A DNA stretch of 64,000 nt from Rathayibacter sp. VKM Ac-2857 (GTDB taxonomy: Bacteria > Actinomycetota > Actinomycetes > Actinomycetales > Microbacteriaceae): contig NZ_JABMLE010000001.1 in NCBI RefSeq assembly GCF_013205025.1, positions 558,001 to 622,000 of the forward strand. Direction: 5' to 3'. Both the position numbers and the translations under genes were made by a program. The number at the start of each line of letters is the position of its first letter. The first letter of the stretch is position 1. The notes under the pieces were generated by a model that was given only the letters and a program-made list of their open reading frames with translations, had not been told where the DNA came from and ran no database searches. Below are positions 25,464-42,684 of this stretch, in pieces.

Positions 25464-26774
25464 GTGACATCGGTCGACAGCACCATCCAGCTCATCGAGC
25501 GGGGCGCCGCCCCCGGCGCGACCTGCGCACCCGAGCTCGCCGACGCGCCCTGGTCCTTCGACCTCGGCCTCCCCGCCTACGGCCCGGGCGCCTCGCAGGC
25601 GGACCCGATCCCGGCGGCGTCGCCCGTGCAGGGCCGGCTGCCGGACGAGTACACCGCGGCGAGCGCCGACGAGCTGCACCGCCGCATCCTCGCGGCGAAG
25701 GAGACGCTGGGCGAGCGCGTCGTCGTGCTCGGCCACTTCTACCAGCGCGACGAGGTGGTGCAGTACGCGGACTTCGTCGGCGACTCCTTCCAGCTCGCGA
25801 AGGCGGTGGCGAACCGACCCGACGCCGAGGCGATCGTCTTCTGCGGCGTGCACTTCATGGCCGAGACGGCGGACATCCTCTCCCGGCCGGATCAGGCGGT
25901 CATCCTGCCGAACCTCGCCGCGGGCTGCTCGATGGCGGACATGGCCGACATCGACTCGGTCGAGGACGCCTGGGCCGAGCTGACCGAGCTCTACGGCACC
26001 GAGCCGGACGCCGACGGCCGCGTCCCGCTGATCCCGGTGACCTACATGAACTCGTCCGCGGCACTCAAGGCATTCTGCGGACGCAACGGCGGTGTGGTCT
26101 GCACCTCCTCGAACGCGACCACCGTGCTCGAGGACGCGTTCGCGCGCGGGCAGCGGGTCCTCTTCTTCCCGGACCAGCACCTCGGCCGCAACACCGCGAA
26201 GGCGATGGGCGTGCCGCTCGAGCGGATGCCGATGTGGAACCCGCGGAAGCCCGGCGGCGGCTCGGACGAGGCGACGCTGCTCGACGCGCAGGTCATCCTC
26301 TGGCACGGCTTCTGCTCGGTGCACAAGCGCTTCACGGTGGCGCAGATCGAGCGCGCGCGCCTCCAGCACCCGGACGTCCGCGTGATAGTGCACCCGGAGT
26401 GCCCGATGGCGGTCGTCGACGCGGCGGACGAGTACGGCTCGACCGACTACATCGTCAAGGCGATCCAGGCCGCGCCGGCGGGCAGCACCTTCGCGATCGG
26501 CACCGAGATCAACCTGGTGCAGCGCCTGGCGGTGCAGTACCCGCAGCACACCATCTTCTGCCTCGACGACGTCGTCTGCCCGTGCTCGACGATGTACCGC
26601 ATCCACCCGGGGTACCTCGCCTGGGTGCTGGAGGGGCTGGTCGCGGGGACGGTGCACAACCGGATCTCGGTCGACGAGTCGGTGCAGGACCAGGCACGCG
26701 TGGCGCTCGAGCGGATGCTCGCGGCGGTGCCGCCGGCCGGGCCGGCCGCTCCTGCTCCCGTGGCGGGGGTCTGA
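25464..26774 (+). CDS. nadA: Quinolinate synthase A
   Basis: 436 residues. It condenses iminoaspartate with dihydroxyacetone phosphate to quinolinate and carries a 4Fe-4S cluster. The expected Cys are in FCGVHFMAETADIL, CTSSNA and DDVVCPCSTMYR. LGHFYQRDEVVQYADFVGDS is the usual N-terminal substrate region. It starts with GTG after GAGGAG. It is second in nrtR-nadA-nadB-nadC-desulfurase. Confidence 0.96.
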   Translation: MTSVDSTIQLIERGAAPGATCAPELADAPWSFDLGLPAYGPGASQADPIPAASPVQGRLPDEYTAASADELHRRILAAKETLGERVVVLGHFYQRDEVVQYADFVGDSFQLAKAVANRPDAEAIVFCGVHFMAETADILSRPDQAVILPNLAAGCSMADMADIDSVEDAWAELTELYGTEPDADGRVPLIPVTYMNSSAALKAFCGRNGGVVCTSSNATTVLEDAFARGQRVLFFPDQHLGRNTAKAMGVPLERMPMWNPRKPGGGSDEATLLDAQVILWHGFCSVHKRFTVAQIERARLQHPDVRVIVHPECPMAVVDAADEYGSTDYIVKAIQAAPAGSTFAIGTEINLVQRLAVQYPQHTIFCLDDVVCPCSTMYRIHPGYLAWVLEGLVAGTVHNRISVDESVQDQARVALERMLAAVPPAGPAAPAPVAGV

Positions 26775-26775
26775 C

Positions 26776-28275
26776 GTGTCCCGCGTCGTCGTGGTCGGCA
26801 GCGGGATCGCCGGCCTGGTCGTCGCCCTGCTGGCCTCGCGTCGGCACGAGGTCGTCCTCGTCACCAAGGGCGCGCTCGCGGAGTCGAGCACGCGCGCCGC
26901 GCAGGGCGGGATCGCCGCCGTCACCGCGGCGGGAGACTCCGTCGCCCTGCACGTCGAGGACACCCTGACCGCGGGCGCCGGGCTGTGCTCGCGCTCGGCC
27001 GTCGAGGTGCTCTGCGCCGAGGGCCCGGCAGCCGTCGCCGCGCTGCAGGCCTGGGGCGTCGGCTTCGACCGCGACGGCGACGACCTCGCCCGCGGCCTGG
27101 AGGGGGCGCACTCGCGGCCTCGGATCCTGCACGCCGGGGGCGACGCGACCGGATCCGCGATCGAGGAGGCGCTCGTCGTCGCGGTGCGCGCCGCCGCGGT
27201 CACGGTGCTCGAGGAGACGGTGCTGGTCGACCTGGTGCGGCCGGGAGCGGCCGTGACCGGCGTGGACGTGCTGCGGGACGGACGGGTCGAGCGGATCGCT
27301 GCCGATTCCATCGTCCTCGCGACCGGCGGGGCCGGGCAGCTCTACCGGCACACCACGAACCCCGCGGTCGCGACCGGCGACGGGCTCGCCGCGGCGCTGC
27401 GGGCCGGCGCCCAGACGGCCGACCTGGAGTTCTACCAGTTCCACCCCACCTCACTCGCGCTGCCGGGCGGGTTCCTGGTGTCGGAGGCGGTCCGCGGCGA
27501 GGGCGCGGTGCTGCGCGACGCCGCGGGTGAGCGCTTCCTCGTCGGGGTGCACCCGGACGCCGAGCTGGCGCCCCGCGACGTGGTCGCCCGCGCGATCGCC
27601 GACCGGATGCTGCTCCAGGGCGGGCTGCCCGTGCACCTCGATGCGCGCGCCATTCCCGCGGACGTGCTCGCGCGCCGCTTCCCGACCATCTCGGCCGCCT
27701 GCCGCGCGGGCGGTCTCTCGCTCGCCGACGACCTCATCCCCGTGACGCCGGCCGCGCACTACTGGATGGGCGGGATCGCGACCGACCTGGACGGGCGGAC
27801 CAGCCTCCCCGGGCTCTTCGCCGTGGGCGAGGTCGCCTGCACCGGCGTGCACGGCGCGAACCGGCTGGCGTCGAACAGCCTGCTGGAGGGCGTCGTCTTC
27901 GCCCGGCGAGTCGCGGCGGCGCTCGACGGACCGCCCGCGATGCCCTCGTCCGAGGCGCCGGAGCCCTCCGCCCTCGTGCCGCTCGCGCTCGACCGCGCGC
28001 TCCTGCAGGAGACGCTCTGGTCGGGCGCGGGGCTCTCGCGCGACGCGGCCGGCCTCGAGGCGGCCCGTGCCGTGCTGCTCGCCGCAGGCTCCCCCGCGCC
28101 GCTCTCGCGGGCGACCCTCGAGGACGCGAACCTCCGCACCTCCGGCCTCGCCCTGATCGACGCCGCCCTGGCCCGCGCCGAATCGCGCGGCGCCCACCAC
28201 CGCACCGACCACCCCCACCCCTCGGCGAGCGCCTACCGCGTCGCCGGCACGAGAAAGGTCGCCGTCCCGTGCTGA
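26776..28275 (+). CDS. nadB: L-aspartate oxidase
   Basis: A 499-residue FAD enzyme oxidising L-aspartate to iminoaspartate for NadA. The N-terminal dinucleotide fold is VVVVGSGIAGLVVALLAS. The active-site region STRAAQGGIAAV and the later HPTSLALPGGFLVSEAVRGEG and GVHGANRLASNSLLEG match the succinate-dehydrogenase/NadB family. It starts 1 nt after the nadA stop and overlaps nadC by 7 nt. Confidence 0.95.
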   Translation: MSRVVVVGSGIAGLVVALLASRRHEVVLVTKGALAESSTRAAQGGIAAVTAAGDSVALHVEDTLTAGAGLCSRSAVEVLCAEGPAAVAALQAWGVGFDRDGDDLARGLEGAHSRPRILHAGGDATGSAIEEALVVAVRAAAVTVLEETVLVDLVRPGAAVTGVDVLRDGRVERIAADSIVLATGGAGQLYRHTTNPAVATGDGLAAALRAGAQTADLEFYQFHPTSLALPGGFLVSEAVRGEGAVLRDAAGERFLVGVHPDAELAPRDVVARAIADRMLLQGGLPVHLDARAIPADVLARRFPTISAACRAGGLSLADDLIPVTPAAHYWMGGIATDLDGRTSLPGLFAVGEVACTGVHGANRLASNSLLEGVVFARRVAAALDGPPAMPSSEAPEPSALVPLALDRALLQETLWSGAGLSRDAAGLEAARAVLLAAGSPAPLSRATLEDANLRTSGLALIDAALARAESRGAHHRTDHPHPSASAYRVAGTRKVAVPC

Positions 28276-29132
28276 CCCGTCAGAGCATCGAGCGCATCGT
28301 CACCCTGGCCCTGGAGGAGGACGCCCCCTGGGGCGACCTCACCTCCGACACCCTGCTGCCCGCCGACGCGACCGCTTCGGCGGCACTCGTCGCCCGCGAG
28401 CCCGGCGTCTTCAGCGGCGGGGCGGTGCTGCTCGGCACGTTCCTGCAGGCCGACTCGCGGGTCCGGGTGCAGGACGTCGCCGCGGACGGCACGGTCTTCG
28501 CGGCCGGTGACGTCCTCGCCCGGATCGACGGCCCGGCCGGCGGGGTGCTGCGCGGCGAGCGCGTGGCGCTGAACCTGGTGCAGCGGATGAGCGGCATCGC
28601 GACGCTGACCGCGCGCTACGTCGAGGCCGTGGCGGGCACCCGCGCGCGCATCGTCGACACCCGGAAGACTACGCCGGGACTGCGGGCGCTCGAGCGGCAC
28701 GCCGTGCGCAGCGGTGGCGGGCACAACCACCGCTTCTCACTCTCGGACGCGATCCTGGCGAAGGACAACCACCTCGCGATCCTCGCCCAGCGCGGTCTCG
28801 ACCTGACGGAGGCGCTGCTCGCCGCGCGCGCGGCCGTCTCGCACACGACGCACATCGAGGTCGAGGTGGATCGGCTGGAGCAGATCAGCGCGGCCCTCGC
28901 CGGCGGCGCCGACACGATCATGCTCGACAACTTCACGCCCGAGCAGCTGGCGCAGGGCGTCGTGCTGATCGGCGGCCGGGCCGTGGTCGAGGCCAGCGGC
29001 GGGGTGAACCTCGACACGGTCCGCGCGATCGCGGAGGCCGGCGTCGACGTGATCTCCGTCGGAGCGCTGACGCACAGCGTCCGCTCGCTGGACCTCGGCC
29101 TCGACATCGCGATCGAGGCTCCGGCCGCGTGA
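28269..29132 (+). CDS. nadC: Quinolinate phosphoribosyltransferase (nicotinate-nucleotide pyrophosphorylase)
   Basis: 287 residues. It converts quinolinate and PRPP to nicotinate mononucleotide. Conserved parts are RVALNLVQRMSGIAT, DTRKTTPGLRALE and the C-terminal ASGGVNLDTVRAIAEAGVD. The GTG start lies inside the end of nadB and the stop overlaps the next gene (GTGA), so translation through the operon is coupled. Confidence 0.95.
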   Translation: MLTRQSIERIVTLALEEDAPWGDLTSDTLLPADATASAALVAREPGVFSGGAVLLGTFLQADSRVRVQDVAADGTVFAAGDVLARIDGPAGGVLRGERVALNLVQRMSGIATLTARYVEAVAGTRARIVDTRKTTPGLRALERHAVRSGGGHNHRFSLSDAILAKDNHLAILAQRGLDLTEALLAARAAVSHTTHIEVEVDRLEQISAALAGGADTIMLDNFTPEQLAQGVVLIGGRAVVEASGGVNLDTVRAIAEAGVDVISVGALTHSVRSLDLGLDIAIEAPAA

Positions 29133-30250
29133 TCTACCTCGACCACGCGGCGACCTCGCCCGTGCGCCGCGAGGTGCTCGAGGCGATGTGGCCGTTCCTG
29201 ACCGGCGAGTACGGCAACCCGTCCAGCAGTCATGCGCTGGGCGCGTCTGCGGCCCGCGCACTGGAGGAGGCGCGGCGGCACGTGGCGCGGTTCCTCGGAG
29301 GGCGCGGCTCGGAGGTCCTCTTCACCTCGGGCGGGACGGAGTCGATCAACACGGCGGTCAAGGGCATCGCGCTCGGCGGTCTCACCGCGCAGCGCGGCCG
29401 GCACGTCGTGATCTCGGCGATCGAGCACGAGGCGACGGTGGAGTCGGCCGACCATCTGCGGCGGCTGCACGGCTTCGAGGTGTCGGTCGCGCCGGTGGAC
29501 GGCGCGGGGCGGCTCGATCTGGAGGCGCTCGCCACGCTGCTGCGGCCGGACACGGCGCTGGTCTCGGTGCTGGCGGCGAGCAACGAGATCGGCACGCTGC
29601 AGGACGTGCCGGCGATCGCGGCGCTCTGCCGGCCGCACCGGATCCCGCTGCACGTGGACGCGGTGCAGGCGGCGGGGTGGATCGACCTGGCCGGGCTGGG
29701 CGCGGACGCGATGTCGATCTCGGGGCACAAGCTCGGGGCGCCGAAGGGCGTGGGGGCGCTGCTGCTGCGCAGTCGCGTGCCGTTCGAGCCGCTCGTGCAC
29801 GGCGGCGGTCAGGAGCGGGCGCGGCGCTCGGGGACGGAGAACGTGGCGTTCGCGGTGGCGCTCGGGGCGGCGGTGCAGCTCGTGGATGCCTCGCGGGGCC
29901 CCCGCGTCTCGGCCGTGCGCGACGCGTTCGCTCTGCGGGTGGCGGCGGAGGTGCCGCGGGCGGTGCCGCTCGGGTCGGCGGAGCACCGGCTCCCCTCGAT
30001 CGCGTCGTTCGTCGTGCCCGGGCGCAGCGGCGAGTCGATCCTGCTGGCGCTGGAGGAGCGCGGCGTCGTGGTCTCCAGCGGCTCGGCCTGCGCGGCCGGC
30101 CGCGACGAGCCGTCGCCGACGCTCCTGGCGCTCGGGCTCGAGCCGGCCGTCGCCCAGACGGCGGTGCGCTTCAGCTTCGGCGCGGAGTCGACGCCGGCGG
30201 ACGCGGACGCGGCGGCAACCGCGTTCGCGGCGGTGCTCGCGCCGGGCTGA
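29129..30250 (+). CDS. NifS-type cysteine desulfurase of the nad operon
   Basis: A 373-residue class V aminotransferase-fold cysteine desulfurase. The PLP lysine is in SISGHKLGAPKG and the catalytic Cys in SSGSACAAG. In the nad operon it probably supplies sulfur for the NadA 4Fe-4S cluster, as for the desulfurase next to nad genes in Bacillus. It overlaps nadC by 4 nt. It could also serve tRNA thiolation; operon position favours the NadA role. Confidence 0.88.
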   Translation: MIYLDHAATSPVRREVLEAMWPFLTGEYGNPSSSHALGASAARALEEARRHVARFLGGRGSEVLFTSGGTESINTAVKGIALGGLTAQRGRHVVISAIEHEATVESADHLRRLHGFEVSVAPVDGAGRLDLEALATLLRPDTALVSVLAASNEIGTLQDVPAIAALCRPHRIPLHVDAVQAAGWIDLAGLGADAMSISGHKLGAPKGVGALLLRSRVPFEPLVHGGGQERARRSGTENVAFAVALGAAVQLVDASRGPRVSAVRDAFALRVAAEVPRAVPLGSAEHRLPSIASFVVPGRSGESILLALEERGVVVSSGSACAAGRDEPSPTLLALGLEPAVAQTAVRFSFGAESTPADADAAATAFAAVLAPG

Positions 30251-32238: not shown

Positions 32239-32432
32239 GTGGGCGGCGGCGGTGCGCCGTCTCGTCACCGCTCACCCCGCTGCCGACACGCCGGATGCGC
32301 GACGGATGTCGGCCGATCGGGAATGTCGGAGGCGCCTGGCAGTGTTCTGAGTCTCGTACCACCCGTCGCATCGACGTCACCCAGGCGATGCGCCCCCTCA
32401 CGACGATCCCCTTCACGACCGGAGACGCACCT

Positions 32433-33914
32433 GTGACCGAGCGCACCCTTCCCGAGACCCGGCCCGCCGCCGCGGCCGACACGCCCTCGACGGCGCTCGA
32501 CCCGCGCAGCCGCCTCGTCATCAGCCTGCTGCTGGTCTCGGCCTTCGTCGTGATCCTCAACGAGACGATCATGAGCGTGGCGCTGCCCGACCTCATGCGC
32601 GACTTCGGCGTCGAGGCGCACGTGGGCCAGTGGCTCTCGACGGCGTTCATGCTGACGATGGCGGTCGTCATCCCGATCACCGGCTACCTGATCCAGCGCC
32701 TGCACACCCGCACGCTCTTCGCCGCCGCGATGACCCTCTTCAGCCTCGGCACGCTCAGCGCCGCGCTCGCGCCGACCTTCGAGGTCCTGCTCGCCGCGCG
32801 CGTCGTCCAGGCCGGCGGCACGGCGATCATGATGCCGCTGCTGATGACCACCGTGATGACCCTCGTGCCGCCGGCCATCCGCGGCCGGATGATGGGCAAC
32901 ATCTCGATCGTCATCTCGGTCGCTCCCGCCGTCGGACCGACGATCTCGGGCATCATCCTCAACTTCCTCAGCTGGCGCTGGATGTTCTGGATCGTGCTGC
33001 CGATCGCCGTCGGCGCGCTGATCCTGGGTCTCCGCAAGGTCGAGAACGTCACCGAGCCGCGCAAGATCCCGATCGACTCGCTCTCCGTGGTCCTCTCCGT
33101 CTTCGGCTTCGGCGGGCTGGTCTACGGGCTCAGCAGCCTGGGCGAGGGCGGCGAGGCGATCGTCGCTCCCTGGGTGCCCTTCGTCGTCGCCGGTGTCGCG
33201 CTCGCGGCGTTCATCGTCCGCCAGCTGCTGCTGCAGAAGACGGACCGCGCCCTGCTCGACCTGCGCACCTTCTCCTCCGGCAACTTCACCGTGGTCATCG
33301 TGATGATGGCGGTGAGCATGTCCGCCCTCTTCGGCACGCTGATCCTGCTGCCGCTCTACACCCAGAACGTCCTCGGCCTCACCCCGCTCGAGACCGGCCT
33401 GCTCCTGCTGCCCGGCGGCCTGCTGATGGGTCTGCTCGCGCCGTTCGTCGGCCGCGGCTACGACCGCTTCGGGCCGCGGGTGCTGCTGGTCCCCGGCTCG
33501 ATCATCGTCGCCGGTGCGCTGTGGGGCTACACGACGCTCGACGAGAACTCGGTCTCCTGGTTCATCCTCTCCCTGCACGTGGTGCTGAGCCTCGGCCTCG
33601 CGCTGGTCTTCACCCCGCTGTTCACCGCGGGCCTCGGCTCGGTGCGCCCCGCGCTCTACTCGCACGGCAGCGCGATCATCGGCACGGTCCAGCAGCTCGG
33701 CGGAGCGGCCGGCACGGCGCTGTTCGTCACCGTCCTCTCGGTGCAGTCGGCCGCGCTCGCCCGCGAGGGCGTCGACGAGGTCGTCGCCACGGCGGGCGGC
33801 ATCCACTCCGCGTTCGTCTGGGGCGCCTCCATCGCGACCGCCGCGATCGTCGCCGCGTTCTTCGTCAAGCGCCCCGCGGAGTCGGACGTGCCGCGGCCCG
33901 TCGCCGCCCACTAG
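32433..33914 (+). CDS. MFS drug-type exporter (DHA2 family, 14 helices)
   Basis: About 493 residues, hydrophobic throughout, with the length of a 14-TM DHA2 (EmrB/QacA-like) H+ antiporter. Helix 1 contains LNETIMSVALPDLMRDF, the DHA2 motif D1-like segment. AARVVQAGGTAIMMPLLMT and SVAPAVGPTISGIIL match motifs C and neighbours. The GTG at 32433 is used; an ATG at 32388 is possible. The substrate is unknown. It lies 117 nt upstream of the Pls-like synthetase on the same strand and could export its product, but that link is position only. Confidence 0.88.
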   Translation: MTERTLPETRPAAAADTPSTALDPRSRLVISLLLVSAFVVILNETIMSVALPDLMRDFGVEAHVGQWLSTAFMLTMAVVIPITGYLIQRLHTRTLFAAAMTLFSLGTLSAALAPTFEVLLAARVVQAGGTAIMMPLLMTTVMTLVPPAIRGRMMGNISIVISVAPAVGPTISGIILNFLSWRWMFWIVLPIAVGALILGLRKVENVTEPRKIPIDSLSVVLSVFGFGGLVYGLSSLGEGGEAIVAPWVPFVVAGVALAAFIVRQLLLQKTDRALLDLRTFSSGNFTVVIVMMAVSMSALFGTLILLPLYTQNVLGLTPLETGLLLLPGGLLMGLLAPFVGRGYDRFGPRVLLVPGSIIVAGALWGYTTLDENSVSWFILSLHVVLSLGLALVFTPLFTAGLGSVRPALYSHGSAIIGTVQQLGGAAGTALFVTVLSVQSAALAREGVDEVVATAGGIHSAFVWGASIATAAIVAAFFVKRPAESDVPRPVAAH

Positions 33915-34031
33915 GGTCCGTCCGGTGCTTCACTCGGGGCACCGGCTGTTCACCTCCGCGTCACCGAGCGCCCCTACCGTGGCGCCCCGGTCGACGTGCT
34001 CCCGGACGCGCGGCCGGAACGGAGAGCACAC

Positions 34032-37000
34032 GTGAGCACGGCCGCGCATCCCCAGGATCTCCTCGACGCCGGCGGACTCGCCCCGGCGCCGCGCACCTTG
34101 ATCGACGTGCTGCGCGACACCGCCGAGCGCCACCCCGACGCGTCCGCGCTCGAGGACCCGGCCGGCGCTCTCAGCTACCGCGAGCTGCTCGCCCGCGTCG
34201 TCGCCACCGCCGCCGAGCTCACCGCCTCCGGGGTGCGCCGCGGCGACCGTGTCGGCGTGCGGATGGCCAGCGGCTCGCGCGAGCTGTACCTCGCGATCCT
34301 CGCCGTCCTCGCGGCCGGCGCCGCCTACGTCCCGGTCGACGCCGATGACCCCGAGGAGCGGGCCCGACTCGTCTTCGGCGAGGCGGCGGTCCGCGGCCTC
34401 ATCACCGGCTCCGGCCGCTTCGAGCGGGTCGATGCGGAGCCCGCGCGGCTGTTCACCGGCTCGGCGCCGCACCCCAGCACCGCCTCGATCCCGCTGCTGC
34501 AGCCGCCGACCCTCGAGGACGACGCCTGGATCATCTTCACCTCGGGCTCGACCGGCACGCCGAAGGGCGTCGCCGTCAGCCACCGCTCGGCCGCCGCCTT
34601 CGTCGACGCCGAGGCCCGCGTCTTCCTCCAGGTCGAGCCCCTCGGCCCCGGCGACCGCGTGCTGGCAGGCCTCTCCGTCGCGTTCGACGCCTCCTGCGAG
34701 GAGATGTGGCTGGCCTGGCGGCACGGAGCCTGCCTGGTGCCCGCCCCGCGCTCGCTCGTGCGCAGCGGCATGGACCTCGGCCCCTGGCTGACCACGCACG
34801 GCATCACCGTCGTCTCGACCGTGCCGACCCTCGCCGCGCTCTGGCCCGCCGAGTCGCTCGAGAACGTCCGGCTGCTCATCTTCGGCGGCGAGGCCTGCCC
34901 GCCGGAGCTCGGGCAGCGCCTGGCCGTCGACGGCCGCGAGGTCTGGAACACCTACGGCCCCACCGAGGCGACCGTCGTCGCCTGCGCCGCTCCGCTCGGC
35001 GGGCCCGGCCCGGTGCGGATCGGCCTGCCGCTGGACGGCTGGCGGCTGGCCGTCGTCGACCCCGAGGGCCATCGCGTCGGGGAGGGCGAGGTCGGCGAGC
35101 TGATCATCGGCGGCGTCGGCCTGGCCCGCTACCTCGACCCGGCGAAGGACGCCGAGAAGTACGCGCCCGCGCCGACCCTCGGCTGGGAGCGCGCCTACCG
35201 CTCCGGCGACCTCGTGCGCTTCGAGAGCGCCGGCCTCGTCTTCCAGGGCCGCGCCGACGACCAGGTCAAGCTCGGCGGCCGCCGCATCGAACTCGGCGAG
35301 GTCGAGTCGGCGCTGCAGGGCCTGCCCGGAGTCTCGGGCGCCGCCGCCGCCGTCCGCACCACCGGCGCCGGGATCCAGGTCCTCGTCGGCTACCTCGCCC
35401 TGGCCGGCGGTCGCGAGCTGGACCGCGACGCCGCGCTGGCGCGCCTGCGCGAGGAGCTGCCGGCCGCGCTCGTGCCGCTGCTGGCCGTGGTCGACGAGCT
35501 GCCGACGCGGGTGTCGGGCAAGGTCGACCGCGCCGCGCTGCCCTGGCCGCTGCCCGACAGCGGAGCGGCGGATCCGGGACTCGACGCCGAGACCGCCTGG
35601 CTCGCCGGTCTCTGGCGCGAGGTGCTCGGCGTCCCGGTCGACGAGAAGGCCAACTTCTTCGACCTCGGCGGCGGCTCGCTCGCCGCCGCCCAGCTCGTCG
35701 CCCGGATCCGCGAGCGCGACCCGGAGTTCACCGTCGCCGACGTCTACGCTCACCCGCGGCTCGCCGCGATGTCGGCCGAGATCACGAGCCGGGCGACCGG
35801 TGCCGGCGAGGTCTCGACCCACCGGATCGCGCCGGTCCCGCGCCGGATGCAGGTGCTGCAGACCCTGCTCGGCGCCCCGCTGCTCGTGCTCGGCGGCGCC
35901 CGCTGGACCACGGTGGTGCTCACGGCCTGCGCCCTGCTCGACCTGCTGCCCGGCTTCGACTGGCTGCCCACCGTCCCGGTCGCGTGGCTCGTCGTGGCGT
36001 TCGCCCTCTTCTGCACCCCGTTCGGCCGGATGGGCCTCACCGTCCTGGCCGCCCGCGCACTGCTGCGCGGCGTGCGCGCGGGCGACCACCCGCGCGGCGG
36101 CGGCGTGCACCTGCGGCTGTGGCTCGCGGAGCGGATCGCCCACCAGCTCGGTGCCGTCAGCCTCGCCGGCGCCCCCTGGGTCGCCCTCTACGCTCGCGCC
36201 CTCGGCGCCCGGATCGCCGACGACGTCGACCTGCACTCGCTGCCGCCGCTCACCGGCATGCTGACCCTCGGCCGCGGCGCCGCGATCGAACCGGAGGTCG
36301 ACCTCTCCGGCTACTGGATCGACGGCGACGTCCTGCGCCTCGGCGCGGTCCGCGTCGGCGCGGGCAGCACGGTCGGCGCGCGCAGCACGCTGCTGCCCGG
36401 CACCCGCATCGGGAAGAACGCCCAGATCGAGCCCGGCTCCGCCGTCTTCGGCCGGGTGCCCGCCGGCCAGCGCTGGAGCGGCTCCCCCGCGCAGCGCGTC
36501 GGCAAGGCGAGTGCGGGCTTCCCCGCCGAGCGGCCACCGCGGGCGACGTCGTGGCTCTGGGCCTACGCCGTCTCGGCGGTGGGACTGGCCGCCGTGCCCG
36601 TGGTCTCCTTCGCGGCGGGCCTGAGTGCGCTCGCCCTCGCCACGCAGGGCTCCGCCGATCTCCCGGAGGCACTCCCCCGCGCCCTCGCCGCCCTCGTCCC
36701 CGCGGTCGCCGTCACCGGCGTCGTGCTGGCCGGGCTCGTCGTCGTGCTCGTGCGCCTGCTCGGCCGCGGCGTCGAGGCCGGCACTCATCCCGTGCGCGGC
36801 CGGATCGGCTGGCAGGTCTGGTCGACCGAGCGCCTGCTCGACCACGCCCGGACGCTGCTCTTCCCGCTCTACTCCGGTCTCTTCACTCCGGTCTGGCTGC
36901 GGCTGCTCGGCGCGAAGGTCGGCCGCGACGTCGAGGCCTCGACCGTGCTGCTGCTGCCCGCGATGACGACGATCCGCGACGGCGCCTTCCTGGCCGACGA

Positions 37001-37964
37001 CACCCTCGTCGCCTCCTACGCCCTCGGCGGCGGCTGGATGCGGCTCGCCCGCGCCGAGATCGGCGAGCGCGCGTTCCTCGGCAACTCCGGCATGGCGGCG
37101 CCCGGCCACACGGTGCCGGCCGGCGGACTGGTCGCGGTGCTCTCCTCCGCGCCGCGCAAGTCCAAGGCGGGCTCGTCCTGGCTCGGCTCGCCGCCGGTGC
37201 GGCTGCGGCGGACCGTCGTCGAGGCGGAGTCGTCGCGCACCTTCCGGCCGGCCGCACGCCTCCGCGCCGCCCGGATCGTCTGGGAGCTGCTGCGCTTCGT
37301 GCCGGTCGTCGTCTCGATCGCGATCGGCTTCGGAATCGTCGTGGCCCTGCTGGCGCTGGTGCCGACGATCGGGGCGCTCGCGACGGCGGTGGTCGGCGGG
37401 GTCGTCCTGCTCGCGGCCGGCGCCGTCGCCGCAGCCGTCTCGACCGCGGCGAAGTGGCTCCTGATCCAGCGCGTGCGCCCGAGCGAGCACCCGCTCTGGT
37501 CCTCCTTCGTCTGGCGCAGCGAGCTGGCCGACACCTTCACCGAGATGGTCGCGGCGCCCTGGTTCGCGCACGCCGCAGCCGGCACGCCCGCGCTGGTCTG
37601 GTGGCTGCGGAGCCTGGGCGCGCGGATCGGCCGCGGCGTCTGGTGCGACAGCTACTGGCTCCCCGAGGCCGATCTCGTCGATCTGGGCGACGGAGCGACC
37701 GTGAACCGGGGCTGCGTCGTGCAGACCCACCTGTTCCATGATCGAATCATGAGTATGGATCTCGTGAGTCTCGACATCGGCGCCACGCTCGGCCCGCACA
37801 GCGTGATCCTCCCCGCGGCGACGATCGCCGCGCACGGCACGGTCGGCCCCGCCTCGCTCGTGATGCGCGGCGAGCTCGTGCCCGCCGGCAGCCGCTGGAG
37901 CGGCAACCCGATCGGCCCGTGGCGGGAGGTGCGCGTCGGCGACTACCACGCGCCCGTCGCGTGA
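34032..37964 (+). CDS. Pls/PosA-family single-module NRPS (poly-amino-acid synthetase)
   Basis: 1310 residues, close to the 1319 of Streptomyces albulus epsilon-poly-L-lysine synthetase Pls. The A domain (about 20-510) shows A3 IIFTSGSTGTPKGV, A5 NTYGPTEA, A7 YRSGDL, A8 GRADDQVKLGGRRIELGEVE and A10 SGKVDRAAL. The T domain has FDLGGGSLAAAQL with phosphopantetheine Ser549. From about 610 to the end come three soluble blocks separated by pairs of membrane helices, with hexapeptide (acyltransferase-like) repeats in the first and last. This is the Pls-type terminal region, which ligates monomers without classical C or TE domains. By alignment to GrsA the pocket reads D-A-E-S-I-G-T-V-V-K, similar to the lysine code I recall. 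The GTG at 34032 follows GGAGAG. Confidence 0.92.
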   Translation: MSTAAHPQDLLDAGGLAPAPRTLIDVLRDTAERHPDASALEDPAGALSYRELLARVVATAAELTASGVRRGDRVGVRMASGSRELYLAILAVLAAGAAYVPVDADDPEERARLVFGEAAVRGLITGSGRFERVDAEPARLFTGSAPHPSTASIPLLQPPTLEDDAWIIFTSGSTGTPKGVAVSHRSAAAFVDAEARVFLQVEPLGPGDRVLAGLSVAFDASCEEMWLAWRHGACLVPAPRSLVRSGMDLGPWLTTHGITVVSTVPTLAALWPAESLENVRLLIFGGEACPPELGQRLAVDGREVWNTYGPTEATVVACAAPLGGPGPVRIGLPLDGWRLAVVDPEGHRVGEGEVGELIIGGVGLARYLDPAKDAEKYAPAPTLGWERAYRSGDLVRFESAGLVFQGRADDQVKLGGRRIELGEVESALQGLPGVSGAAAAVRTTGAGIQVLVGYLALAGGRELDRDAALARLREELPAALVPLLAVVDELPTRVSGKVDRAALPWPLPDSGAADPGLDAETAWLAGLWREVLGVPVDEKANFFDLGGGSLAAAQLVARIRERDPEFTVADVYAHPRLAAMSAEITSRATGAGEVSTHRIAPVPRRMQVLQTLLGAPLLVLGGARWTTVVLTACALLDLLPGFDWLPTVPVAWLVVAFALFCTPFGRMGLTVLAARALLRGVRAGDHPRGGGVHLRLWLAERIAHQLGAVSLAGAPWVALYARALGARIADDVDLHSLPPLTGMLTLGRGAAIEPEVDLSGYWIDGDVLRLGAVRVGAGSTVGARSTLLPGTRIGKNAQIEPGSAVFGRVPAGQRWSGSPAQRVGKASAGFPAERPPRATSWLWAYAVSAVGLAAVPVVSFAAGLSALALATQGSADLPEALPRALAALVPAVAVTGVVLAGLVVVLVRLLGRGVEAGTHPVRGRIGWQVWSTERLLDHARTLLFPLYSGLFTPVWLRLLGAKVGRDVEASTVLLLPAMTTIRDGAFLADDTLVASYALGGGWMRLARAEIGERAFLGNSGMAAPGHTVPAGGLVAVLSSAPRKSKAGSSWLGSPPVRLRRTVVEAESSRTFRPAARLRAARIVWELLRFVPVVVSIAIGFGIVVALLALVPTIGALATAVVGGVVLLAAGAVAAAVSTAAKWLLIQRVRPSEHPLWSSFVWRSELADTFTEMVAAPWFAHAAAGTPALVWWLRSLGARIGRGVWCDSYWLPEADLVDLGDGATVNRGCVVQTHLFHDRIMSMDLVSLDIGATLGPHSVILPAATIAAHGTVGPASLVMRGELVPAGSRWSGNPIGPWREVRVGDYHAPVA

Positions 37965-39298
37965 GCCCCGCGCAGACCGGTCTGGAGACGGCGGGCGACC
38001 CGTACCTGTCGGGGATCGGCAACACGGGTTACCGCGTCGAGTCGTACGACCTCGATCTCGACTACCGGGTGTCGAGCAACCGGCTCGCGGGCCGCGCGAC
38101 GCTGCGGATCGTCGCCCTGCAGCCGCTGCGCCGCTTCTCCCTCGACCTCAGCCGCCTCCGGGTGACCCGGGTGCGCGTCGACGGACGCAAGGCACGGGCC
38201 GAGCAGGTCGCGCACAAGCTCCGGATCACGCCCGCCGAGCCGCTCGGGGCCGGCGAGAGCTCGATGGTGGAGATCGAGTACGGCGGCCACCCCGGTCCGC
38301 GCGCCAGCCACTGGGGCGAGCTGGGCTGGGAGGAGCTGGCCGACGGCGTGCTCGTCGCCTCGCAGCCCTCGGGAGCCTCGACCTGGTACCCCTGCAACGA
38401 CGACGTCGCCGACAAGGCGGCGTACCGGATCCGGGTGAGCGCGGAGGAGGGCTACTCCGTCCTCGCGAACGGCGTGCTGCTCGAGACGAGCGAGCGCTCG
38501 GGCCGGCGCACCTGGCTCTACGAGCAGCAGGAGCCGACCGCGAGCTACCTCGCGTCGGTGCAGATCGGGCGCTACGTCCTGGAGGACCGGCTGCTCGCCG
38601 GAGTCGCCGTCACGCTCGCGCGCCCGGCCGCCCTGGCCTCTCGCGTCGCGCGCGACTTCGCGCCGCTGAGCGACATGCTCGCCTTCTTCTCCCGCGTGTT
38701 CGGCCCCTATCCGTTCCGGCAGTACACCGTCGTGGTCACCGCGGACGAGCTCGAGATCCCGCTGGAGGCGCAGGGCATGGCGGTGTTCGGCGCCAATCAC
38801 GCCGACGGCCGCGGCGGCTCGGAGCGGCTGATCGCGCACGAGCTGGCGCACCAGTGGTTCGGCAACAGCGTCGGCCTGGCCCGATGGCGGCACATCTGGC
38901 TCAACGAGGGCTTCGCCTGCTACGCGGAGTGGCTGTGGTCGGAGGAGTCGGGCGGGCTCAGCGCCGACGCCCAGGCCCGCCGGCACCACGCACTCCTGCG
39001 GCTCCAGCGGCAGGACCTCGTGCTGGGCGACCCGGGACCGGTGGACCTCTTCGACGACCGCGTCTACAAGCGCGGCGCGCTGACGTTGCACGCGCTTCGC
39101 CTGCGGCTCGGTGACGCGGCGTTCTTCGGGCTCCTGCGCACCTGGACCGCGCGGCACGCCTCCGGCATCGTGAGCGAGGACGACTTCCGCGCGCTCTGCG
39201 CCGAGGTCGCGGGCGGTTCTGCGGCCCCTGGCGTCGCGGCGCTGCTCGACGCGTGGCTGGTCGACGTGCGGCTGCCGCCGCTACCGGCCGCCCGCTGA
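37961..39298 (+). CDS. M1-family zinc metallopeptidase coupled to the Pls-like synthetase
   Basis: A 446-residue single-core M1 peptidase. HExxHx18E is complete: His293, Glu294, His297, Glu316 in HELAHQWFGN...WLNEGFACY. The N-terminal beta domain (about 15-190) and a short C-terminal helical part (340-440) are present; the long domain IV of PepN-type enzymes is absent. The usual GxMEN loop appears as LEAQGMAVFG. Its GTG overlaps the synthetase stop (GTGA), so the two are translationally coupled. Epsilon-poly-lysine producers contain zinc aminopeptidases that degrade the polymer, so product trimming or self-protection is plausible. No signal peptide was seen. Confidence 0.88.
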   Translation: MSPAQTGLETAGDPYLSGIGNTGYRVESYDLDLDYRVSSNRLAGRATLRIVALQPLRRFSLDLSRLRVTRVRVDGRKARAEQVAHKLRITPAEPLGAGESSMVEIEYGGHPGPRASHWGELGWEELADGVLVASQPSGASTWYPCNDDVADKAAYRIRVSAEEGYSVLANGVLLETSERSGRRTWLYEQQEPTASYLASVQIGRYVLEDRLLAGVAVTLARPAALASRVARDFAPLSDMLAFFSRVFGPYPFRQYTVVVTADELEIPLEAQGMAVFGANHADGRGGSERLIAHELAHQWFGNSVGLARWRHIWLNEGFACYAEWLWSEESGGLSADAQARRHHALLRLQRQDLVLGDPGPVDLFDDRVYKRGALTLHALRLRLGDAAFFGLLRTWTARHASGIVSEDDFRALCAEVAGGSAAPGVAALLDAWLVDVRLPPLPAAR

Positions 39299-40036
39299 GA
39301 CGAGCGAGTCCTCGAGCGCGTCGCCGTGCTCCCGGCGCCAGCCGATGATCGGACCGGCGCCTCCTATCGCGTCGCCGAGCGCGACGCTGACCCGCAGCGA
39401 CGGGTCGAGGCGCGGCTCGGCGAGCCGGAATCGCGACTCGTCGATCCGCGCCTCCGCGGCGAAGCGCGACTCGTGGATCCGGACGCGGCGCGGATCGACG
39501 TCCAGCCCGCGGCCGTCGGCCTTGAGCGCCGCCTCGATGCGGGTCCAGTGCAGGATCGGATCGGCCGCGCGGAACCCGCCCGTGGCGAAGGGGGCGCCGG
39601 CGATCCGCGTGATCGCGACGCCGCGCTCGGCCGGCCCCTCGACGGGCTCCACGTCGACCCCGACGATCCCCGCGCTGCTCGCCGCGACGACGACCGCGCC
39701 CGCGCAGTGCGCGATGCTGACGGAGAGGTGCTCGGCACCGTCGATCCAGGGGCGCCCGTGCGCTCCGCCGCAGCGGGCGCAGCGCGCCGACACCTGCACC
39801 GCCGTCGCCGGTCGCCCGAGCAGCTCGCCCGCGAGCATCCGCAGCAGCACCCGGCCGAAGACGAAGCGCTCGGCCACCGCCGCCGACCCGGTCGCGCGAT
39901 AGCGCTCGCGCTCCGCCGTGCCGAGCAGCGGCAGCAGACGCCCGGCGTCGAGGCTCTGCTCGTCGAGCGCGAGCCAGCGCAGATGCACTCCCGGCAGGTC
40001 CTGCACGGCGTCGTGCGTCATCGTCCTGTCCCCCAT
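39281..40036 (-). CDS. 4'-phosphopantetheinyl transferase (Sfp type)
   Basis: 251 residues. Family motifs are IVGVDVEPV (Mg2+-binding Asp and Glu) and HWTRIEAALKADG (WxRxEAxxK). ERFVFGRVLLRMLAGELLG and LSVSIAHCAGAVVVA are the two N-terminal family segments. It should activate Ser549 of the T domain encoded by the converging synthetase gene; the two transcription units overlap by 18 nt at their 3' ends. An internal ATG at 40021 is an alternative start. It is 36 nt downstream of ppk2. Confidence 0.87.
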   Translation of the reverse strand: MGDRTMTHDAVQDLPGVHLRWLALDEQSLDAGRLLPLLGTAERERYRATGSAAVAERFVFGRVLLRMLAGELLGRPATAVQVSARCARCGGAHGRPWIDGAEHLSVSIAHCAGAVVVAASSAGIVGVDVEPVEGPAERGVAITRIAGAPFATGGFRAADPILHWTRIEAALKADGRGLDVDPRRVRIHESRFAAEARIDESRFRLAEPRLDPSLRVSVALGDAIGGAGPIIGWRREHGDALEDSLVSAGGR

Positions 40037-40072
40037 GATCCCGTCCCCCTGATCCCGTCCGCCGGTCTCGCG

Positions 40073-41095
40073 CTAGTCCGATGCCCGCGCGGTCGCCGCG
40101 TGCTCGCCGCGCTCGTAGACGTCCGCCGCCGAGCCGACGATCAGCGGGTCGGGTCCGAGCGGCGAGACGACCTCGTCGTCCCGGCCGTCGTAGTCGTAGA
40201 GGCTCAGCACGTAGCGCATGGCCTCGAGCCGCGCGCGCTTCTTGTCGTTGCTCTTGACGATGGTCCACGGGGCGTCGGCCGTGTCGGTCGCCGCCATCAT
40301 CGCCTCCTTGGCCGCCGTGTAGTCGCCCCACTTGTCGAGCGAGGCGAGGTCCATCGGCGAGAGCTTCCACTGCCGCACCGGGTCGATCATCCGGATGGTG
40401 AAGCGGGTGCGCTGCTCCTCGGCCGAGACCGAGAACCAGAGCTTGACCAGGTCGATCCCCTCGCCGACCAGCATGCTCTCGAACAGCGGCGTCTGCCGGA
40501 TGAACTCGTCGTACTGCTCCGGAGTGCAGAACCCCATCACGCGCTCGACCCCTGCGCGGTTGTACCAGGAGCGGTCGAACAGCACGATCTCGCCCGCGGC
40601 GGGCAGGTGCGAGACGTAGCGCTGGAAGTACCACTGCGTGCCCTCCCGCTCGGTCGGCTTCTCAAGCGCGACCACGCGGGCCCCGCGCGGATTGAGGTGC
40701 TCGGTGAAGCGCTTGATCGTGCCGCCCTTGCCCGCGGCGTCGCGTCCCTCGAAGACGACGACGAGGCGCCGGCCGTGCTTCTTGATCCAGTTCTGCAGCT
40801 TCAGCAGCTCGATCTGCAGCAGCCGCTTGCCGGCCTCGTACTCCTCGCGCGACATCCGCTCGTCGTAGGGGTAGCCCTCGCGCCAGGTGTCGATCTGCGT
40901 GCCGTCGCGGCGCAGCAGCACCGGATCGTCGTCGTCCTCGTCGAGCACGACGAGGTCGCGGGCGTCCTCGGGAGTGAGCGAGCGGAGCAGCTCGGGAGAG
41001 GGCACGAGGGCACCGTCGGAGGCGGAGTCGGGGGCAGCGGGAGCGGCCTCGAGGACGGCGTCGGAGCGGGGGGAGCGATCGGAGGCGGAGGGCAC
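40073..41095 (-). CDS. ppk2: Polyphosphate kinase 2 family protein
   Basis: 340 residues. The PPK2 domain covers about 80-310, with Walker A FEGRDAAGKGGTIKRF, the lid/Walker B region LFDRSWYNRAGVERVMGF, and the later SPMDLASLDKWGDYTAAKE. It interconverts polyphosphate and nucleoside phosphates. The N-terminal 70 residues are low-complexity and acidic. A leaderless GTG start is supported by TAGCGT 6 nt upstream. It probably shares a transcript with the phosphopantetheinyl transferase; ATP regeneration for the ATP-hungry synthetase is an attractive but unproven link. Confidence 0.92.
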   Translation of the reverse strand: MPSASDRSPRSDAVLEAAPAAPDSASDGALVPSPELLRSLTPEDARDLVVLDEDDDDPVLLRRDGTQIDTWREGYPYDERMSREEYEAGKRLLQIELLKLQNWIKKHGRRLVVVFEGRDAAGKGGTIKRFTEHLNPRGARVVALEKPTEREGTQWYFQRYVSHLPAAGEIVLFDRSWYNRAGVERVMGFCTPEQYDEFIRQTPLFESMLVGEGIDLVKLWFSVSAEEQRTRFTIRMIDPVRQWKLSPMDLASLDKWGDYTAAKEAMMAATDTADAPWTIVKSNDKKRARLEAMRYVLSLYDYDGRDDEVVSPLGPDPLIVGSAADVYERGEHAATARASD

Positions 41096-42114: not shown

Positions 42115-42684
42115 TCAGACGGCCCGGAGTGCATCAGGAGTCCACCGCGGCCACTGCGGGCCGCCGACGAGCGTCCCGTGCTCGAAGGTCGCGCAGAGAC
42201 GGAACGGCTCTCGCGCACTGCTGTTGTCGAGCACCTCCACGACGTCGGCGACCGGGATCGCACTCCTGACGTGGCTCCACAGCCGCTCGTAACGGGCGCG
42301 GATCTTCTCCTCCGGCACGACGTGTCCGCCCCGACGGACCCGCTCCAGCACCCGTTGCACGGTCAGCTCGACCGGAACCATCACGACATGGAGGTGGACG
42401 AGGTAGCCCGCCTCGACGGCGTCGGACAACAGCTCGACCTTGCTCGGATGGGAGAACACCGTCTCGGAGAGGAACGACTCCCCGGCGGCGAGCATCTCCC
42501 TGCGACGGGCCTCCGCGATCCGCGCCGCCTCGTAGGCGTGCTCTGCCTCACCACCGGGCCATCGCTCCGCCGCGATCTCGTCCGCGTTGATGAACGGCAG
42601 GTGGGTCGTCGGCATCAGGACATCGCGGACGTAGGTCGACTTCCCCGCTCCGTTCGGGCCGGCGAGGAGGTGCAGCAGCGGCAT
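42115..42684 (-). CDS. Zeta-toxin family kinase (toxin of a TA pair)
   Basis: 189 residues. Walker A is LLAGPNGAGKST. FINADEIAAERWPG contains the zeta-type NADEI segment with the catalytic Asp, and SFLSETVFSHPSKVELL matches the ETVFS substrate motif. Zeta toxins phosphorylate UDP-N-acetylglucosamine and poison wall synthesis, though some chromosomal homologues have other targets. The ATG overlaps the stop of the upstream small gene (ATGA), the usual antitoxin-toxin order. The partner here is not a classical epsilon protein. Confidence 0.82.
   Translation of the reverse strand: MPLLHLLAGPNGAGKSTYVRDVLMPTTHLPFINADEIAAERWPGGEAEHAYEAARIAEARRREMLAAGESFLSETVFSHPSKVELLSDAVEAGYLVHLHVVMVPVELTVQRVLERVRRGGHVVPEEKIRARYERLWSHVRSAIPVADVVEVLDNSSAREPFRLCATFEHGTLVGGPQWPRWTPDALRAV

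Follow-up and report, generated by a model that had tools for sequence, protein, structure and literature searches.

A probable ε-poly-L-lysine locus with an adjacent phosphopantetheinyl transferase gene in Rathayibacter and other Micrococcales

Analysis of a 64,000-nucleotide (nt) stretch of the genome of Rathayibacter sp. VKM Ac-2857 (hereinafter the window; G000:C1:558001-622000, where G000 denotes this 4.6 Mb genome, available in 8 contigs) revealed what is very likely an ε-poly-L-lysine (ε-PL) locus of a Micrococcales type. Judging from sequence comparison, this locus combines pls, the gene for a predicted ε-PL synthetase (Pls; P0001), a coupled gene for a metallopeptidase of the M1 family (P0002), and a gene for an Sfp-type 4'-phosphopantetheinyl transferase (PPTase; P0003) that would prime Pls; an adjacent gene for the polyphosphate kinase PPK2 appears to be a local addition. 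A first-pass annotation of the window had joined these four genes and an upstream gene for a DHA2 family transporter into a single, apparently little described locus for poly-amino-acid synthesis. The coordinates that it gave for all five genes are accurate (Table 1), as are the three junctions, namely the 4-nt overlap of the M1 gene with pls, the 36 nt that separate the PPK2 gene from the PPTase gene downstream of it, and the 117 nt between the DHA2 gene and pls.

Two sets of sequences were used for comparison. The first consists of 80 named loci (L-labels), the best 80 of a scan, which include no Streptomyces or Corynebacterium; their grouping into Micrococcales and others is our own, and contig ends cut some of them (L045 stops with its M1 gene and L041 about 0.5 kilobase (kb) past it). 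The second is a survey of 199 Microbacteriaceae genomes (G-labels; genera as g-labels) with thresholds of E<=1e-100 for Pls, E<=1e-70 for M1, E<=1e-6 for the PPTase and E<=1e-70 for PPK2. Among the matches listed, the closest named relatives by pls belong to the Microbacteriaceae, and Pls was detected in 88 of the 199 sampled genomes of this family.

The assignment of P0001 to the Pls-like synthetases, proposed in the first-pass annotation, was borne out by the comparison with TIGR02353 (688.8 bits against a curated cut-off of 423.1), and the AA-adenyl-dom profile is likewise matched above its cut-off. Among solved structures, the closest in sequence is the adenylation domain of ε-PL synthase (7wew; 620.3 bits), with which the adenylation domain of P0001 aligns along its length. 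At an E-value of 0.001, the Pfam domains recognized in P0001 are AMP-binding, PP-binding, Hexapep and, below its cut-off, AMP-binding_C, with no condensation or thioesterase domain, in agreement with the adenylation-thiolation layout originally suggested. Hydrophobic clusters near residues 617-672, 840-916 and 1080-1145 fit three pairs of segments, the family layout being six transmembrane helices that alternate with three repeats; the helix count derived from hydropathy is unreliable. The predicted substrate pocket, DAESIGTVVK, is the same in P0001 and all 80 relatives, with the ten columns placed by motif according to GrsA numbering, and the corresponding columns of 7wew, read by eye from a printed alignment, contain the identical ten letters. 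The lysine-activating members of the Pls/PosA family are reported to have alanine at position 2 (PMC10522769). Because the pocket matches that of 7wew and alanine occupies this position, the predicted product is specifically ε-PL. A 1339-amino-acid (aa) open frame lies antisense to pls (window 33930-37949, minus strand) and is taken to be a shadow frame of the kind found in DNA with a high content of guanine and cytosine (GC).

The M1 peptidase accompanies Pls almost throughout both samples. In P0002, the Peptidase_M1 domain and its N-terminal domain both score above the Pfam cut-offs, and the zinc motif HExxH-18-E is present in this protein and in all 76 relatives read (the frames of 4 of the 80 were not extracted). 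In every one of the 80 loci, an M1 homologue is encoded downstream of pls and in the same orientation, at a distance of no more than 200 nt in 76 and of 0.6-2.2 kb in the other four (L065, L069, L072 and L078). In the window, the GTGA shared by the start of the M1 gene and the stop of pls creates the 4-nt overlap, and 35 of the 76 loci with an extracted M1 frame could have the same arrangement. Among the 199 genomes, M1 was detected in 87, all of them Pls-bearing; the remaining one of the 88 Pls-bearing genomes is G119, in which the locus (G119:C8; L100) consists of fragments of pls and the PPTase gene without M1 and is in the process of loss. In Streptomyces albulus, the peptidase PldII is translationally coupled to pls, and its repression has been reported to alter both chain length and tolerance (PMC9223678). 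Homology and coupling suggest that P0002 corresponds to PldII and, by extension, that it would degrade or trim the polymer and protect the producer. The genome encodes a second M1 peptidase (G000:C1:1197-2489, minus strand), 41% identical to P0002, which is present also in G105, and G186 encodes one with 40% identity; S. albulus is likewise reported to possess two ε-PL-degrading enzymes (PMC9223678).

The third component is highly diverged. P0003 has no Pfam match at an E-value of 0.001 and scores 18.7 bits against ACPS, under the cut-off of 25; with a family profile as the query, Sfp (1qr0) is matched with an E-value of 1.6e-14 over positions 16-218 of 225. Residues D128, W164, E168 and K172 do not vary among 26 relatives, and D, E and K are those that we take to be catalytic in PPTases. 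The fold model of P0003 has a mean pLDDT (predicted local distance difference test) of 87.6. When the neighbours of the 80 loci were clustered, with pls and M1 excluded, the PPTases were so divergent that they split into at least two clusters, and a PPTase profile was therefore used instead. This profile, which was built from Micrococcales and may miss a very different PPTase beside pls in other groups, detected the gene in 38 of the 42 Micrococcales loci against 0 of the 38 others, including L045 with its truncated neighbourhood. The positive loci comprise 24 of 27 from Microbacteriaceae (all except L013, L017 and L020), 13 of 14 from Micrococcaceae (all except the prematurely ending L041) and the single Humibacillus locus.

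In the family survey, the PPTase is encoded in all 88 Pls-bearing genomes and in 9 of the 111 without Pls. In 80 of the 88, no more than 6 kb separates the PPTase gene from a Pls-family gene, and its position varies: it is downstream and convergent in 72 genomes, upstream and codirectional in 5, and in 3 genomes of the genus g65 (G065, G123 and G169; L099) it lies 2.9-5.8 kb from a second Pls-like gene with 32-33% identity, the product of which may differ from that of pls. Four genera (g19, g55, g68 and g77) contain both members with pls and the PPTase gene and members with neither. The Rathayibacter genome yields only two PP-binding matches (E<=0.01), the carrier domain of Pls and an acyl carrier protein (ACP) encoded between fabH- and fabF-like genes (these fab names are read from the translations), along with one ACPS match above the cut-off. 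Because these two carrier domains are the only ones detected in the genome, and because every Pls-bearing genome also encodes the PPTase, with its gene near Pls-family genes in varied positions, the PPTase is probably a dedicated activator of Pls. The suggestion that it activates the thiolation domain thus has stronger support, from co-occurrence and linkage, than was available to the first-pass annotation. Rank correlations of Pls-PPTase and Pls-M1 distances (0.63 and 0.77, respectively, for 36 sequences) were not used as support since shared ancestry alone could suffice to produce them. The W-x-x-x-E motif is missing from a second PPTase-like gene (G000:C2:502173-502775, minus strand; L002), which has 42% identity to P0003, and from its copies in G041, G105 and G156 (78-94% identical), of which the one in G041 retains the G-I-D part; the product of this second gene is possibly a conserved inactive paralogue.

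Table 1. Predicted genes and protein domains of the Rathayibacter locus (window coordinates)
Feature	Coordinates	Strand	Evidence
pls, predicted ε-PL synthetase (adenylation-thiolation-terminal membrane domain), 1310 aa	34032..37964	+	TIGR02353 688.8 bits; PDB 7wew 620.3 bits
Adenylation domain, residues about 28-503, predicted pocket DAESIGTVVK	34113..35540	+	same ten letters in 81/81 aligned proteins
Thiolation (carrier) domain, GGGSL phosphopantetheine site	35598..35780	+	PF00550
Pls/PosA terminal domain with hydrophobic segments	35853..37913	+	TIGR02353 over residues 608-1294; hydropathy
PldII-like M1 zinc metallopeptidase, 445 aa, HExxH-18-E	37961..39298	+	Pfam M1 domains; conserved downstream of pls
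Sfp-type 4'-phosphopantetheinyl transferase, probable dedicated Pls activator	39281..40036	-	Sfp profile match; invariant residues; co-occurrence and linkage
PPK2 polyphosphate kinase, mostly genus-level neighbour	40073..41095	-	TIGR03707 378.4 bits; linked in 11/14 Pls-bearing genus genomes
DHA2 (EmrB-type) major facilitator superfamily (MFS) transporter, genus-level neighbour, probably outside the system	32295..33914	+	TIGR00711 310.9 bits

Several observations weigh against the PPTase being a part of the system, and some of these point to an alternative in which Pls and the M1 peptidase alone make up the system and the PPTase, a general enzyme of the Sfp type, is kept nearby by inherited gene order. 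In 8 of the 88 Pls-bearing genomes, the PPTase gene is unlinked (on another contig in 6 and far away in 2). It is present in nine Pls-free genomes (G012, G014, G017, G052, G073, G122, G124, G131 and G168), Pls-free members with the PPTase being found in g13, g66 and g73, and in G200, which belongs to the same genus as G000 and lacks pls; the corresponding stretch in G200 (L101), without pls or M1, keeps the transporter and PPTase genes. The Pls terminal domain (E<=1e-20) was found in 0 of these 10 genomes; therefore the PPTase can exist without Pls, which makes the alternative slightly more probable. The Fisher value for the co-occurrence of Pls and the PPTase, 1.2e-46, ignores kinship, and the 88 genomes include G119 although its pls and PPTase genes are both fragments. 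In the WxxKE motif, P0003 has isoleucine in place of the lysine that is found in 22 of 38 relatives, and AcpS might also prime Pls. Nevertheless, a general enzyme retained by gene order appears improbable to us, given the unbroken co-occurrence with Pls, the varied positions relative to pls, the three genomes in which the gene lies near the second Pls-like gene, the four genera in which some members have the two genes together and others lack both, and the presence of a single carrier domain, that of the ACP, besides the one in Pls. Two further points bear on the function of the locus as a whole: hydropathy indicates no hydrophobic N-terminal segment in P0002, and PldII of S. albulus is reported to lie outside the membrane (PMC9223678); and the locus may be silent here too because Corynebacterium variabile gave no detectable ε-PL in culture, its pls being functional, with ε-PL made, in S. 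coelicolor (PMC8117764). As for the product, some members of the Pls/PosA family make other cationic polymers, and the lysine pocket is a prediction from sequence; the agreement of both the pocket and the overall sequence of P0001 with the solved lysine enzyme makes poly-ornithine, poly-diaminobutyrate or the like very unlikely, as does the peptidase operon, an arrangement that has been reported for Pls but not for the three other synthetases included in that comparison (PMC8117764).

The first-pass annotation went further and envisaged a functional locus of five genes in which PPK2 regenerates ATP and DHA2 exports the polymer. Both are clear members of their families, with scores above the cut-off for TIGR03707 (378.4 against 301.8 bits) and TIGR00711 (310.9 bits), respectively, and within the genus the linkage is strong. 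PPK2 is encoded about 2.1 kb from pls in 11 of the 14 Pls-bearing genus genomes (13 plus G208, in which a contig end truncates pls). Of the remaining three, G156 retains 53 residues of PPK2 at this position, G208 allows no judgement, and G209 has a truncated pls without any match to PPK2. In all 14 genomes, the DHA2 gene lies upstream of pls at a distance of up to about 1.2 kb. Outside the genus, PPK2 linkage was detected in L011, in G010 and, with the gene located upstream of pls, in Arthrobacter (L090); the Arthrobacter case is suggestive only because it is a single case, and linkage by chance is expected in about 0.4% of genomes that have one copy. Moreover, Pls makes AMP and class I PPK2 acts on ADP, so an extra step from AMP would be needed. 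The introduction of PPK2 enzymes into S. albulus has been reported to raise the ε-PL yield (PMC10012588), which speaks in favour of the five-gene proposal. Against the five-gene locus, PPK2 is found near pls in only 2 of the 80 named loci (L011 and L090; L055 has a 36% identical relative some 8 kb away) and within 10 kb of pls in only 4 of the 88 Pls-bearing genomes of the survey (G000, G105, G041 and G010). A close DHA2 copy is adjacent to pls in 1 of the 80 loci (L011), with 26-29% identical MFS matches somewhere in the stretch in 13 more, and the gene persists in G200 without pls. We consider the five-gene proposal unlikely, and PPK2 and DHA2 were rejected as defining parts on the basis of linkage beyond the genus: the conservation of M1 and the PPTase with pls holds, and that of PPK2 and DHA2 does not extend past the genus and a few relatives. 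The position of DHA2 is probably genus-level synteny, outside the polymer system.

With pls and M1 excluded, the largest remaining clusters of neighbours include up to 26 of the 80 loci at scattered distances; seven cluster representatives, typed with Pfam, are an ABC transporter, a class V aminotransferase, a tRNA-editing domain, an enoyl-CoA hydratase, a flavin reductase, a DUF2752 protein and one without a match. A partner limited to Mycobacteriales may exist beyond these seven. Within the locus, pls starts with GTG, with GGAGAG ending 5 nt upstream, and the convergent M1 and PPTase genes overlap by 18 nt at their ends. A scan of the locus for sigma-70 promoters found none, and the only terminator-like site lies within the M1 gene, a count not above that in shuffled sequences. 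Third-position GC is high (0.94-0.96) in all five genes, as it is in the rest of the genes picked in the window, which has a GC content of 72%. Elsewhere in the window, positions 25464-30250 contain a row of genes for NadA (quinolinate synthase), an FAD-binding oxidoreductase, NadC (quinolinate phosphoribosyltransferase) and a class V aminotransferase, as is usual for an operon of NAD synthesis, and a gene for a small zeta-toxin/AAA-like kinase is located at 42115-42684 (minus strand).

The favoured interpretation, a Pls-M1-PPTase locus for ε-PL, implies the following scheme. The Sfp-type PPTase would attach phosphopantetheine to the carrier domain of Pls, the adenylation domain of which, as established for the family, would activate L-lysine with ATP and load the carrier; the membrane-bound terminal domain, again by analogy with characterized family members, would link the lysines through their ε-amino groups without condensation or thioesterase domains. 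The coupled M1 peptidase would degrade or trim the polymer and thereby protect the cell that makes it, a role that PldII has in S. albulus. In this genus, PPK2, encoded next to the PPTase, may help to re-form ATP from polyphosphate as a local addition and not a defining part.

The pls-pldII core of this locus is already known, since the coupled pair has been described in Streptomyces (PMC9223678) and in Corynebacterium, and homologues were found in Microbacterium (PMC8117764); to this core, the claim of the first-pass annotation that the combination is little described does not apply. The S. albulus pair shares with the Rathayibacter locus the architecture of the synthetase, with its terminal membrane domain, the predicted lysine pocket and the translationally coupled downstream peptidase; it differs in that here an Sfp-type PPTase gene converges on the pair, and none is mentioned for Streptomyces in the accessible portions of the papers cited. 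The C. variabile operon likewise unites genes for a Pls homologue and a peptidase (PMC8117764) but comes from outside the Micrococcales, where the PPTase was found beside pls in 0 of 38 loci, none of these from Corynebacterium. C. glutamicum is reported to have a PPTase of its own, PptAcg (PMC11078359), and outside the Micrococcales a general PPTase may prime Pls. PosA, the δ-poly-L-ornithine synthetase of Acinetobacter baumannii, belongs to the same family and has the same architecture but differs in its pocket, DMEHNGTVSK, and is described as encoded in a single-gene operon (PMC10522769). The antiSMASH class of non-alpha poly-amino acids (NAPAA) covers loci of the ε-PL type but is a detection class without a description of partner genes; one study of Antarctic bacteria reports a NAPAA locus in every isolate that it assigned to the Micrococcaceae or Dermatophilaceae (PMC11078813). 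Among the matches listed in a search of the open-licence literature, no title or abstract beginning described a PPTase beside pls, and no open-licence paper was found that brings together Pls, Microbacteriaceae and poly-L-lysine. Thus, the first-pass claim possibly stands for the PPTase, which is apparently an undescribed partner in a known kind of locus.

A broader and clearly more tentative proposal, which we consider possible and rather doubtful, is that ε-PL production in the Micrococcales depends on a dedicated, co-inherited PPTase as the on-switch of Pls, and that some lineages have independently added PPK2 to feed ATP from polyphosphate, which would be the natural counterpart of a system engineered in Streptomyces. 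ε-PL, which is produced with Streptomyces, is approved for the preservation of food. The presence of Pls in 88 of 199 genomes shows how common this capacity is among the Microbacteriaceae. In bacteria that do not form filaments, a compact, self-contained set of a synthetase, a peptidase and what is likely the cognate PPTase would permit a direct test of priming as a limit on production, and suggests candidates for co-expression in other hosts.

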